Source of the DNA: a virus
Direction: 5' to 3' (one strand)
Length of the DNA stretch: 32,800 bases
Virus record (IMG/VR): IMGVR_UViG_3300047373_000707
Span: 1 to 32,800 of that record
Part shown: in pieces, positions 12,704 through 17,258 of the stretch
Position numbering within the stretch: position 1 is the first letter of the stretch
Layout of the letters: the number at the start of each line of letters is the position of its first letter
Position numbers and translations under genes: made by a program
Notes under the pieces: generated by a model
The model's input: only the letters and a program-made list of their open reading frames with translations
Databases searched by the model: none
What the model was told of the DNA's origin: nothing

Positions 12704-14326
12704 TTATTTCTTTTTTCTCCAAGAATCTTTTAATGGCAAAACCATGTTCCATACACCTTTTGACTCTTTGTTATAATATCCATTTCGCTCAAACTGAACG
12801 GTGTATCCTTCTTTTTCTTCTGAAGTAGATATTTCAGTAAAAGCTTTAACTTCTTGTTTAGATTCTTTATTAAATTCATTTAAAAAATCTTCTGTAGGTT
12901 CTTCAACAGAAAAAAGTCTGTCATAAACATTAACATTTATAGGAATGTTATTGTCAGCATTTACCCAATGTAATGTGCCTTTTATTTTTCTGCCATCATC
13001 AGACCATCCACCTCTTGTTTCAGGGTCGTATGTACATAACAGCTCTATAATTTTACCATCATTATCTTTAACTACCTCATTACAAGTAACATAGTATCCA
13101 TATTTAAATCTAACCTCCTTGTTGTTACTAAGTCTAAAGAATTTTTTTGGAGCATTCTCCATAAAATCTCCTCTCTCTATATAAAGATGTTTTCCAAAAT
13201 TAACCATTCTATAGTTTTCTTCTTCGGATTCTGGATTTAGTTTAGCTGGTAACATTTCTTCACCACCTTCCCAGTTTGTTATTGTTACTTTTAAAGGGTC
13301 AAACACGGTCATTCTTCTGTTGGCATCCTTATTTAAAACTTCTTTTATACAAGATTCAAACAAAGAAGAATCAATTAAACTTTCCCTTCTTGATATTCCA
13401 ATTTTTTCACAAAACAATTTAATTGCTTTAACAGGTATTCCTCTCCTTCTCAATCCAGACAAAGTTGGTAGTCTAGGGTCATCCCAACCGTCTACAATAC
13501 CCTCTTCAACTAATTGTTTTATTATTCTCTTACTCATAACTGTATGAGACAAGTTAAGTCTAGAGAACTCTATTTGTCTTGGCTTTATATCTCTGTCTAT
13601 TAATTCATTTATAATCCAGTCATAAAGAGGCCTATGTGGCTCAAACTCTAAAGTACATACAGAGTGAGTTATATTTTCTATAGCATCAGATAAACAATGA
13701 GCGAAGTCATACATAGGATATATACACCATTTATCTCCAGTGTTATGGTGATGCTCTTTTTTTACACGATATATAATAGGGTCTCTCATATGAACATTAG
13801 AAGATGACATATCTATCTTAGCACGTAAAGTCATTTTACCATCTTCAACATCTCCGTTTCTCATAGATTCAAATAAAGATAAATTTTCCTCTACGCTTAA
13901 ATCTCTATTTGGACTTGGTTTACCTGGGCTGTCTGTTGTACCCATATACTCTTTTATTTCTTCAGAGTTTAAAGTACATACATAAGCCTTTCCCTTATTA
14001 ATTAGTTCTAAAGCAAAATTATATATCTTATCAAAATAATTAGAAGCATAATATATATTAGCTGGCTTTACACCTAACCATTCAATATCTTTTTTCATAG
14101 ACTCTACAAACTCCATAGATTCAGTAGAGGGGTTGGTATCATCAAATCTTAAATTACATTTACCATTGTATTTTTCTGCTAATCCGAAATTTAGAAATAT
14201 AGATTTAGCATGTCCAAGATGCAACGAATTTCCAGATGGTTCTGGAGGAAATCTGGTGACAATATCTTTCACATTTCCTTCTTCAATTATTTCTTCTATG
14301 AAATTTTTACCTTCTTTATTATCCAT
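12704..14326 (-). CDS. glnS: Glutaminyl-tRNA synthetase
   Basis: Class I enzyme that joins glutamine to tRNA-Gln. At 540 residues it is full length (E. coli GlnRS about 554). The nucleotide-binding signature is RFPPEPSGNSLHLGHAKS with HLGH at residues 36-39, and the second signature is TVMSKR, the KMSKS equivalent. The segment CNLRFDDTNPSTE and the C-terminal beta-barrel region are also typical. I see no frameshift or missing catalytic motif, so it is probably active. It is encoded near a phage tRNA-Gln (15060-15130) on the same strand, but separated from it by a terminator, DHFR and tRNA-Leu. This enzyme is uncommon among phage-encoded synthetases. Confidence 0.95.
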   Translation of the reverse strand: MDNKEGKNFIEEIIEEGNVKDIVTRFPPEPSGNSLHLGHAKSIFLNFGLAEKYNGKCNLRFDDTNPSTESMEFVESMKKDIEWLGVKPANIYYASNYFDKIYNFALELINKGKAYVCTLNSEEIKEYMGTTDSPGKPSPNRDLSVEENLSLFESMRNGDVEDGKMTLRAKIDMSSSNVHMRDPIIYRVKKEHHHNTGDKWCIYPMYDFAHCLSDAIENITHSVCTLEFEPHRPLYDWIINELIDRDIKPRQIEFSRLNLSHTVMSKRIIKQLVEEGIVDGWDDPRLPTLSGLRRRGIPVKAIKLFCEKIGISRRESLIDSSLFESCIKEVLNKDANRRMTVFDPLKVTITNWEGGEEMLPAKLNPESEEENYRMVNFGKHLYIERGDFMENAPKKFFRLSNNKEVRFKYGYYVTCNEVVKDNDGKIIELLCTYDPETRGGWSDDGRKIKGTLHWVNADNNIPINVNVYDRLFSVEEPTEDFLNEFNKESKQEVKAFTEISTSEEKEGYTVQFERNGYYNKESKGVWNMVLPLKDSWRKKK

Positions 14327-14359
14327 TTTTTAAACTTTTTATAAAGTTACTTAAATTAG

Positions 14360-14400
14360 ATATAAAAAAAAAGCTGAAGACGCTTTAAAACATCTTCAGC
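14360..14400 (-). terminator. Terminator after the tRNA-Leu/tRNA-like unit
   Basis: On the minus strand GCTGAAGA (14400-14393) pairs with TCTTCAGC (14380-14373), 8 bp, and is followed by nine T residues. It separates the DHFR/tRNA-Leu/tRNA-like unit from glnS, so glnS needs its own promoter or read-through. Confidence 0.85.
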
Positions 14401-14406
14401 ATTTAG

Positions 14407-14534
14407 AACTCGATGCAGGAGTCCAACCTGCTTAACTTATATTCGCCATTCACAATGAAGTGGTTAACCAATGGTTTATTATTAAAGCCAGCCCACATAT
14501 CTGTGGGTCGTGTATGTCATTCCACCTATCGAGC
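14407..14534 (-). ncRNA. 128-nt tRNA-like RNA, diverged tRNA-Leu relative
   Basis: On the minus strand the 5' end GCTCGAT pairs with ATCGAGT at the 3' end as a 7-bp acceptor-like stem (G-U first pair). Just inside the 3' side is a T-arm: stem GCAGG/CCTGC with loop TTGGACT. At the 5' side GTG/CAC form a D-like stem. The first 27 nt closely resemble tRNA-Leu 6 nt upstream (GGTGGAAT and ACACG shared). Between lies a hairpin CCCAC-AGATAT-GTGGG, with a 6-nt loop instead of 7 and no U33, and about 59 nt of unexplained sequence with further weak hairpins. The D loop lacks GG and the T loop has G56 in place of C56. It is not a normal tRNA. It may be a decaying copy, a tRNA with an insertion, or a distinct RNA. 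Confidence 0.5.
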
Positions 14535-14539
14535 ATTAG

Positions 14540-14623
14540 TACTCGGGGCGGGAATCGAACCCGCACTCCCAAATGGGAACAAGATTTTAAGTCTTGCGTG
14601 TCTACCTATTCCACCACCCGAGC
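14540..14623 (-). tRNA. tRNA-Leu (anticodon UAA)
   Basis: 84 nt. Acceptor GCTCGGG/CCCGAGT (first pair G-U), anticodon stem CAAGA/TCTTG with loop CTTAAAA (anticodon TAA), long variable arm CCCATTTGGG, T-arm GCGGG-TTCGATT-CCCGC. The 3' CCA is not encoded. It reads UUA, a leading Leu codon in this AT-rich genome. The 5' end directly abuts the TAA stop codon of the DHFR gene. Confidence 0.95.
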
Positions 14624-15010
14624 TTAATCTGTATCAAATTTATAAATAATTTTCTTACCAGAAAAATTTTTCAGCTCTGGCATTTTTGTATCACCTATAG
14701 TTTCATCATTTATTTCAGAGATATGAAGTTCATCACATAAATGAATTGTAGATTCGTATATTCTTTTCCCCCCTATAATCCAATCAGGCTTTTTTTCCAA
14801 AGCCTGTTCAAGGGTATTATATCCTTTTCCAACAACAATTACCTCTCTTCCTTTTAGGGTAGGCATAGATTCATAAGTTGTTCTACCTACAAGAATCTTA
14901 CATCCCATTGTTAAGTTTTTAAAATGCTTTAAATCCTCTTTACAATTCCAAGGAAGTTTATTATCCTTTCCAATGTATCCTACTTTATTTGTTGCAATTA
15001 TTGCTTTCAT
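14624..15010 (-). CDS. folA: Dihydrofolate reductase, short form
   Basis: Reduces dihydrofolate to tetrahydrofolate with NADPH, supporting phage nucleotide synthesis. Starts MKAIIATNKVGYIGKDNKLPW, with the LPW loop and an acidic residue in KEDLKHFK, followed by GRTTYESMP and WIIGGKRIYE, all conserved in DHFR. At 128 residues it is shorter than typical bacterial enzymes (about 159 or more): the C-terminal beta region is trimmed, yet the catalytic and cofactor-binding segments are present. I chose the ATG at 15010; a longer form would begin in an upstream hairpin. The stop codon touches the 5' end of tRNA-Leu. A terminator hairpin lies just before the start, so expression may depend on read-through. 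Confidence 0.9.
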   Translation of the reverse strand: MKAIIATNKVGYIGKDNKLPWNCKEDLKHFKNLTMGCKILVGRTTYESMPTLKGREVIVVGKGYNTLEQALEKKPDWIIGGKRIYESTIHLCDELHISEINDETIGDTKMPELKNFSGKKIIYKFDTD

Positions 15011-15014
15011 GTTT

Positions 15015-15058
15015 TTAAAAATAAAGAAACACAATCAAATTAATTGACTGTGTTTCTT
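15015..15058 (-). terminator. Terminator-like hairpin between tRNA-Gln and DHFR
   Basis: On the minus strand AAGAAACACAGTCAA (15058-15044) pairs with TTGATTGTGTTTCTT (15038-15024): 15 bp including one G-U, 5-nt loop. It is followed by TATTTTT. It starts 2 nt after the tRNA-Gln and ends 13 nt before the DHFR ATG, so it could terminate the tRNA transcript or control DHFR translation. Confidence 0.75.
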
Positions 15059-15059
15059 G

Positions 15060-15130
15060 TTGGCCTACTAGGACTCGAACCTAGAATGGAGGTACCAAAA
15101 ACCTCAGTGTTGCCATTACACCATAGACCA
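15060..15130 (-). tRNA. tRNA-Gln (anticodon UUG)
   Basis: 71 nt. Acceptor TGGTCTA/TAGGCCA with the weak U1-A72 pair typical of tRNA-Gln; anticodon stem GAGGT/ACCTC with loop TTTTGGT (anticodon TTG); T-arm CTAGG-TTCGAGT-CCTAG. Discriminator is A73 and position 37 is G, unlike E. coli tRNA-Gln (G73, A37). CCA is not encoded. The phage also encodes GlnRS 0.7 kb downstream. Confidence 0.95.
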
Positions 15131-15143
15131 ATAACTTATTTAG

Positions 15144-15215
15144 TAGCCCGTAAGAGAATCGAACTCTTGTTACCAGGATGAAAACCTGGCGTCCTAACCA
15201 CTAGACGAACGGGCC
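15144..15215 (-). tRNA. tRNA-Glu (anticodon UUC)
   Basis: 72 nt. Acceptor GGCCCGT/ACGGGCT (first pair G-U), D-arm with AGTGGTTAGGAC, anticodon stem CCAGG/CCTGG with loop TTTTCAT (anticodon TTC), T-arm AAGAG-TTCGATT-CTCTT. CCA is not encoded. It reads GAA, which is extremely common in the acidic scaffold and other structural genes. Confidence 0.95.
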
Positions 15216-15604: not shown

Positions 15605-15931
15605 TTAGCAATGCCGAACAGCACGCACATTATATTTGTAACTCTTGTGGAAGTAACCTTGAAGACCGTTAGTGAAAATGTGGAACCAAGCAAGAGTTTT
15701 ATCATAATCTGTAGAGCTCCAATGAATATTGTTACCAAGGTCACCAATTTCTTCCTTGTTTTCAAAAAACATATTCAATTCCTTTATTGTTGGCAATCTC
15801 CATCCTTGCCCGAGGTTTTTAGAAGTCTCAATTGCTTCATACCAAGTCATATGTCCTAGATTATGAGACACTTCCAATCCGTTAACTGATTTTTTGCCTT
15901 CTAATAGTATATGTTTTGACTTAACACTCAT
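15605..15931 (-). CDS. Lectin-fold (DUF1566/Lcl-type) protein, candidate DGR variable protein 2
   Basis: A 108-residue paralogue of the next gene, colinear without gaps and strongly similar in the first 65 residues (LLEGKKSVNGLEVS, WRLPT, EL-M, NKEEIG). The C-terminal 40 residues differ at about half the positions: HWSSTDYDKTLAW versus YWSSTEYNNFGVW, and later LQGYFHKSYKYN versus TQNGSSKNYTIR. Both end VRAVR-x-C, encoded by the identical CGTGCTGTTCGG then ATTGC. Variable positions again often carry NNC codons (TTC, CAC, TAC). Silent C/T differences from the paralogue show the two were not copied from one single template recently. The ATG overlaps the stop of the PcfJ-like gene (TAATG). Confidence 0.75.
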   Translation of the reverse strand: MSVKSKHILLEGKKSVNGLEVSHNLGHMTWYEAIETSKNLGQGWRLPTIKELNMFFENKEEIGDLGNNIHWSSTDYDKTLAWFHIFTNGLQGYFHKSYKYNVRAVRHC

Positions 15932-16590
15932 TAAACTAAGTCATTATTACTTTTATTAAACTTAAGTTTATATTTTGTAAGATATTCTATAACGAATTCT
16001 CTACTTTCTTTTGAAGCGGGGTAATTAGAATGTGCTTTTAGCTGGTTGAATACCAAATCATTATCAACAACTGCAAAACCTAAAGTCAACCTTTCCCAGG
16101 ATTTTTTATTAAAAAACTTAAATCCTACATATTCTCCTTCTGCAATTATATATCTATAAGTAGCTATACAATGATTCATATACTTACCTTCCCAATCTAA
16201 TTGTTTTATATCTTGTATTAATTCGATTTTATAATTTTCTTCATCACAAGATAGATGACTGTAATTATCTACTCGTTGTTGAAACTTCTGCTCCAGATAA
16301 AAATCTGAATCTGCCTTAAAATTTCTTACTAACTCAAGATGATATCCAAGAAGATTCTTTTTTTCTACAGAAAGAAGAGTGTCTGTATCTTGATTCATTA
16401 TTTTAAGAGTTCTATATGTGTCTATATAATACTCAACTAACGTTTCGTGATTTATTTTTCTTTCAAAAATATTTTCAATATGCTTCGCTGGTAAAATTTC
16501 ACCGTCTCCAAAATTATTATTTAAATAATCAAAAAATATTTCGACTTCTATTTTAGAAGACTTTTGTTCTAATAAATTTTTATCAATCAT
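15931..16590 (-). CDS. PcfJ-like protein
   Basis: A 219-residue protein. The segment LDWEGKYMNHCIATYRYIIA followed by EGEYVGF (residues about 135-160) matches the conserved core of PcfJ-like proteins (L-x-x-E-G-x-x-M-x-H/N-C), named after a gene of plasmid pCF10 and widespread on plasmids and phages. The biochemical role of the family is not known to me. The N-terminal 120 residues are helical. It overlaps the upstream ATPase gene by 4 nt (ATGA) and the downstream lectin gene by 1 nt (TAATG), so all three should be translated together. The association with hypervariable-type lectins is unusual. Confidence 0.65.
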   Translation of the reverse strand: MIDKNLLEQKSSKIEVEIFFDYLNNNFGDGEILPAKHIENIFERKINHETLVEYYIDTYRTLKIMNQDTDTLLSVEKKNLLGYHLELVRNFKADSDFYLEQKFQQRVDNYSHLSCDEENYKIELIQDIKQLDWEGKYMNHCIATYRYIIAEGEYVGFKFFNKKSWERLTLGFAVVDNDLVFNQLKAHSNYPASKESREFVIEYLTKYKLKFNKSNNDLV

Positions 16591-17258
16591 AATTGTGTTT
16601 GTAAAGATAAATTATCGGAACCATATCTATTTTTTATAAGATTAATTTTTGCGTTAAATCCATTATCAACATTAGTAGTTTTATTAACAGTCATATATAC
16701 ATCACTCCAAATTAAAGTATTATTAATAGAATGGAAGGCTCTTGTTTCTAAATCACTGTTTAAACTTCTCTGTAAACTTGTAGATATGTAACAACTTACA
16801 TCACAAACATTTGAAATGTCTCTAATTGAATCCATATTTTCCTTTATTGTATCTCTGTTTGTTAATGAAAATTTTCTTTCGATTGTTTTTTCAGTCAATA
16901 GTCTTTTGCTATGTTTAAGTATATTTTGTTGGTATCCAACATAATCATCAAAAAATATAGATTTAATTTTATTGTGGTTAACAATCTTTTCAATGAGGTT
17001 AAAATTATCATTGGATAAATGAAACAAGCTACCATTATTTTCATTTTTTTTATATGCAAATTGTTCCTTTTTTCTTTTAATTCTATTAAAAAAATAACTT
17101 GAAGAAACTTCTCCAACATACAAACAGTTAAAACCTTTTTGCATATGCTCTAAAATTAAAGATTCTAAAACAGATGATTTACCCCCTCCAGCGGTAGAAG
17201 CTATTACTGTTGTGTTACTCTCAAAATAAGGAAGGTCGAAATGATTTAATATATTCAT
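16587..17258 (-). CDS. Stand-alone RecA/DnaB-like P-loop ATPase
   Basis: A 223-residue protein with the core of a DnaB-type RecA-fold ATPase. Walker A is ASTAGGGKSS (residues 20-29; the first Gly is replaced by Ala). CLYVGEVSSS (45-54) corresponds to the S-L-E-M strand with the catalytic Glu50. Walker B is SIFFDDY (100-106). LIKNRYG near residue 211 resembles the arginine finger region (K-N-R-x-G) of DnaB helicases. It lacks the N-terminal primase-interacting domain, so it is not a complete replicative helicase. It could be a reduced helicase or a motor for another process. It begins the minus-strand operon directly downstream of a strong host-type promoter; the first in-frame ATG is only about 6 nt after the minus-7 box, so the transcript may be leaderless. 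Confidence 0.75.
   Translation of the reverse strand: MNILNHFDLPYFESNTTVIASTAGGGKSSVLESLILEHMQKGFNCLYVGEVSSSYFFNRIKRKKEQFAYKKNENNGSLFHLSNDNFNLIEKIVNHNKIKSIFFDDYVGYQQNILKHSKRLLTEKTIERKFSLTNRDTIKENMDSIRDISNVCDVSCYISTSLQRSLNSDLETRAFHSINNTLIWSDVYMTVNKTTNVDNGFNAKINLIKNRYGSDNLSLQTQL

Follow-up and report, generated by a model that had tools for sequence, protein, structure and literature searches.

Why does a phage keep a gene for glutaminyl-tRNA synthetase (GlnRS) near a tRNA-Gln, and do the two work together? The window, which is the whole stretch of DNA analysed here, is an entire IMG/VR record of 32,800 bases and probably a fragment of a larger phage genome. Among its genes are those for a tail sheath and for a gp23-type capsid protein, which shares 93% identity with the capsid protein of a 232-kb record (G003). 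The named isolates that match this capsid protein best are a Microcystis phage (35% over 90% of its length) and Flavobacterium phages (41% over 66%). The main grounds for inferring the host are therefore the tRNA and the GlnRS tree; the phage is probably a large T4-like (gp23) phage infecting Bacteroidota.

In order of transcription on the minus strand, the locus begins with a tRNA unit in which tRNA-Glu(UUC) (15144..15215; ARAGORN and Rfam) is the upstream partner of tRNA-Gln(UUG) (15060..15130). This order is also found in the related contig L001, while L002, L003 and L006 have a tRNA-Asp in between. A terminator-like hairpin (15024..15058), with a matching hairpin in L001 and L002, lies directly 3' of tRNA-Gln. 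Then come a dihydrofolate reductase (DHFR) gene (14624..15010; PF00186, E 1.7e-29), tRNA-Leu(UAA) (14540..14623; ARAGORN; Rfam 60.9 bits), a tRNA-like RNA (14408..14534), a second terminator-like hairpin with a T run (14373..14400; same hairpin in L001), and finally glnS (12704..14326). Two overlapping neighbour ORFs are also on the minus strand (15931-16590 and 16587-17258), one with a PcfJ-like match and the other with a marginal STAND NTPase match.

The enzyme and its origin

The product of glnS, 540 aa long, scores 660.9 bits against the NCBIfam glnS model TIGR00440 over residues 23-537, well above the cut-off of 425.8, and is thus a full-length GlnRS by the curated standard. Pfam finds the catalytic domain and two anticodon-binding domains (PF00749, PF03950, PF20974), and the E. 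coli GlnRS of known structure aligns with residues 8-538 (E 1.7e-179). The class I motifs of HIGH/KMSKS type, HLGH and VMSKR, are both there, and so are the glutamine-binding and anticodon residues: R30, D66, Y211, HxGH, MSKR, R341, R402, R410, Q517 and R520 (E. coli numbering) are all unchanged. Together with the ARAGORN and Rfam calls of the tRNA, this bears out the preliminary description, in which a complete GlnRS with these signatures was placed near a tRNA-Gln(UUG). Like cellular bacterial GlnRSs such as that of E. coli, the window enzyme has the complete set of domains, the HIGH and MSKR motifs and the anticodon-contact residues, but about half of its residues differ from cellular homologues and it has one extra residue before HIGH. 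Judged by its conserved residues, it is apparently functional. A proline at the site of E. coli D235, a position that we take to be an acceptor-stem contact in the E. coli enzyme, was considered as a specificity change and rejected, as cellular GlnRSs are variable there (D in 33/80). A structure model from a 7-row alignment was of low confidence (mean pLDDT 62) and was left unused.

The extra residue deserves attention. Aligned with six phage relatives, codons 33-34 (Asn-Ser; 14225..14230, minus strand) stand just before HLGH where other GlnRSs have a single residue, giving GNSLHLGH against GxLHxGH; among 106 GlnRSs with a readable motif this occurs in the window only. The GlnRS of L001, 92% identical, does not have it, and over a single block of 100 bases early in glnS the DNA identity between the window and L001 falls to ~70%. 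Because of this local drop, the extra residue could come from local recombination, from an assembly chimera or from a real variant, and it might impair the enzyme.

Where did the enzyme come from? In a GlnRS tree to which another 20 enzymes from Bacteroidia had been added, the window clade joins the GlnRS of genome G072 (support 100/99), whose glnS sits among the chromosomal genes hemA, ftsX, bacA and exbB/exbD, and the clade of L174 joins the GlnRS of G037 (100/98). The position of the window clade beside a chromosomal enzyme of Bacteroidia argues that the window GlnRS was probably captured from Bacteroidota; the capture would not be recent, because the branches are long. A single phage-specific clan of GlnRSs, suggested by a first tree, was withdrawn once the 20 Bacteroidia enzymes were added. 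Some candidates for phage glnS were dropped as well: L167, L169-L173, L177 and L187 group with E. coli GlnRS, are nearly identical to it, and are probably chromosomal flanks of prophages in viral-called IMG/VR contigs, and L007 and L008 group with Bacillaceae. Both tRNAs and synthetases are known from huge phages, where the enzymes have been proposed to charge the phage tRNAs (Al-Shayeb et al. 2020, PMC7162821), and the GlnRS loci of LR745206 and LR756502 belong to large uncultured-phage records of that kind. Like them, the window phage is large and carries tRNAs and a synthetase akin to those of Bacteroidota; unlike those phages, which have many synthetases, the relatives of the window have GlnRS only, where tested.

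Identity bases of the tRNA-Gln

Is the tRNA-Gln itself unusual? It is called by ARAGORN at 15059-15130 and by Rfam at 15060-15130 (56.2 bits). Read on the minus strand, it has U1-A72, G2-C71, G3-C70, the loop UUUUGGU (U32, anticodon UUG, G37, U38) and A73, with no encoded CCA, which confirms the bases first reported. The contrast with E. coli, from which an unusual identity had been concluded, was in itself fair: the discriminator base is part of the E. coli Gln identity set (PMC9976931), and A37 with U32-U38 is a mark of gamma- and beta-proteobacteria (PMC3927822). Thermus GlnRS, on the other hand, works with a G37 tRNA-Gln (PMC3927822). For the window phage, E. coli is the wrong reference. 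Host genes were read with a covariance model built from six phage tRNA-Gln genes, a model that favours look-alikes, yet it matched in 57/60 Bacteroidia genomes and lower-ranked matches were read too; in 51 genomes of one class-wide sample, with one tRNA-Gln(UUG) gene read from each, A73 is found in 47, G37 in 47 and U1-A72 in 49. Genomes with GlnRS only show the same pattern (A73 in 13/15). As for named genomes, A73 and G37 occur in Filimonas, Mucilaginibacter and Emticicia, A73 and A37 in Chryseosolibacter, and A73, G37 and A1 in Spirosoma; the comparison thus covers the class Bacteroidia and five named non-flavobacterial genera.

The window tRNA, with its cloverleaf, UUG anticodon, U1-A72, G37, A73 and D-arm GGTGTAA..GG..AACAC, is therefore of the Bacteroidia type, up to 89% identical to host genes and the same as them at the identity positions examined; the closest host gene belongs to a Saprospiraceae genome. 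The apparent oddity stemmed from taking E. coli as the yardstick, and that claim is now removed: host tRNA-Gln carries the same bases 37 and 73 at class level, the very outcome named beforehand as fatal to it, and the basis for an orthogonal pair falls with it. As A73, G37 and U1-A72 are the Bacteroidia norm, the locus looks like a phage topping up Gln-tRNA charging and not like an orthogonal system. Beside these ordinary tRNAs, UUG-anticodon tRNAs with a long class-II variable arm and U1-A72 occur near or directly upstream of glnS in other records (L005:5561-5646, L174:9663-9744, L207:19820-19901, L208:19731-19815); they look like tRNAs of Leu/Ser type converted to glutamine.

Possible roles of the phage GlnRS

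What is the enzyme for? A charging role is likely. We consider it fairly probable that a GlnRS captured from Bacteroidota sustains the supply of Gln-tRNA by charging phage and host tRNA-Gln alike. In this scenario, a lineage of large T4-like phages would have captured the enzyme, which during infection would attach glutamine directly to tRNA-Gln. As the identity bases of the phage tRNA-Gln are those normal for Bacteroidia, the phage GlnRS should charge both this tRNA and the host tRNA-Gln, and the host machinery would charge the phage tRNA too. The benefit would be a Gln-tRNA supply maintained after host gene expression is shut down. The enzyme is intact, its functional residues are conserved, the tRNA is ordinary, both genes are kept in related contigs, and two large relatives yielded no synthetase other than GlnRS; the activity, substrate range, expression, benefit and host are what we infer. 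Counted against a supply role, tRNA-Gln is equally present in relatives that have no GlnRS, and nothing ties the two genes functionally.

Then why GlnRS alone, when phages of this lineage carry as many as 61 tRNAs? This is the sharper question left. When ORFs of 270-1100 aa were scanned with Pfam, GlnRS was the only synthetase found in G003 (232 kb) and G004 (363 kb), the latter with 61 tRNAs; ORFs spanning tile borders may be missed by these scans, and the records may be incomplete. Pfam was used because NCBIfam scans of all ORFs were swamped by sigma factors and DNA polymerase and were uninformative for synthetases. No match to the synthetase families PF00587, PF00152 or PF00133 turned up in G001-G004 or G006, while G005 has one short PF00587 fragment. 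Glutamine thus seems to be singled out. G004 and G005 (L194-L206) are phage records of 353-363 kb with 61-65 tRNAs, where the isoacceptors for an amino acid are arranged as tandem pairs or runs.

One answer would be a pathway bypass: the host is a member of Bacteroidia without GlnRS that uses a non-discriminating GluRS and GatCAB, and the phage GlnRS installs a direct route independent of the host amidotransferase. We regard this as a minor possibility, less likely than a sustained Gln-tRNA supply. Among 60 Bacteroidia genomes, 36 have GatB without GlnRS, 16 have GlnRS only and 8 have both. In such hosts a sole synthetase for glutamine would make sense, since other amino acids could use host enzymes and glutamine could not. 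Yet the nearest cellular GlnRS comes from a genome that itself bears GlnRS, the genome with the closest tRNA-Gln (89%) has GlnRS too, an older set of Bacteroidetes has GlnRS without GatCAB in 12/14 (PMC3927822), and related phages with tRNA-Gln manage without GlnRS. If the bypass were true, a virus would be switching its host from one route of aminoacyl-tRNA synthesis to another, and this would explain a glutamine-only synthetase in relatives so rich in tRNAs. A host name would bear directly on the matter, as many Bacteroidia do not have GlnRS. Two genomes with GlnRS (G027:C19:17848-19227 and G072:C57:2150-3493) also give lower-score GatB-family matches in open frames of ~1,115 aa; these may be amidotransferases that are fused or divergent.

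Are the two genes paired at all? GlnRS and tRNA-Gln may be independent passengers of tRNA-rich large phages, close to each other by chance and shared ancestry, which we think unlikely. The six related GlnRS contigs (62-92% GlnRS identity), three of which, L002, L003 and L006, are near-copies, all have a tRNA-Gln(UUG) within ~5 kb (6/6). As a control we took capsid relatives of the window, 11 large records without GlnRS, and all six of them with at least 10 tRNAs carry tRNA-Gln. Co-presence of glnS and tRNA-Gln is uninformative because these tRNA-rich relatives have the tRNA too; tRNA-Gln is not confined, or mainly confined, to genomes with glnS, and co-occurrence was rejected as proof of coupling. 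Of the self-sufficient pair in the preliminary description, the joint retention of both genes in related contigs stood, and co-occurrence gave no sign of the coupling. A conservative test of whether tRNA-Gln lies closer to glnS than other tRNAs do gives a combined p of ~0.10 over five records, which is not significant. Within the window, tRNA-Gln and glnS have DHFR and both terminator-like hairpins between them. Against mere passengers, glnS is intact across phages down to 62% identity, tRNA-Gln is nearest to glnS in G003, which has 7 tRNAs only, 3-4 tRNA-Gln genes stand immediately before glnS in three huge phages (L174, LR745206, LR756502), and the 54.5-kb L179 record has two tRNAs in total, both tRNA-Gln. 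Functional coupling of the phage GlnRS and tRNA-Gln is thus plausible. Four of the capsid relatives without GlnRS (L359, L361, L369, L374) have tRNAs with anticodons CUA and UUA, which suggests stop-codon suppression or recoding.

It is highly improbable that the phage enzyme alone serves a tRNA that evades host GlnRS or a host defence which cleaves tRNAs: the E. coli contrast at A73 and G37 and the general fact that phages counter anticodon nucleases are all that speaks for it, but A73, G37 and U1-A72 are the host norm, which leaves no visible identity difference, and the anticodon-contact residues of the phage enzyme are the usual ones.

A tRNA-like RNA beside glnS

The RNA at 14408-14534 (minus strand) is perhaps more novel than the GlnRS and tRNA-Gln. 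It resembles a tRNA with a long variable region and without an anticodon loop, and neither ARAGORN nor Rfam calls it. Together with its terminator, which contributes part of the signal, it folds better than 200/200 shuffles (z -4.2). In G003 (L192:1275-1399), G006 and L383 a homologue lies between tRNA-Met and tRNA-Asn; no further members were found beyond these and the window. A match in L386 was rejected, being inside a 610-aa ORF. The window element and the homologue alike show an acceptor stem of 7 pairs, a D-arm-like segment and a T-arm whose loop is non-canonical, and their stem ACCC-N10-GGGCT leaves no normal anticodon loop. They share the string TTAATAATAA, and in the acceptor and anticodon-like stems six pairs differ on both sides between the window and the G003 copy with pairing kept. 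The G003-type homologue alone folds no better than shuffles (z -0.3). By analogy, the element is possibly akin to rnaC and rnaD of phage T4 (139 and 119 nt), which it resembles in size and in lying within the tRNA cluster of a phage of T4 type. Like rnaC it has a T-arm, but the T-loop is canonical in rnaC and non-canonical here; the likeness to rnaC and rnaD is thus one of size and place, with the T-arm added for rnaC.
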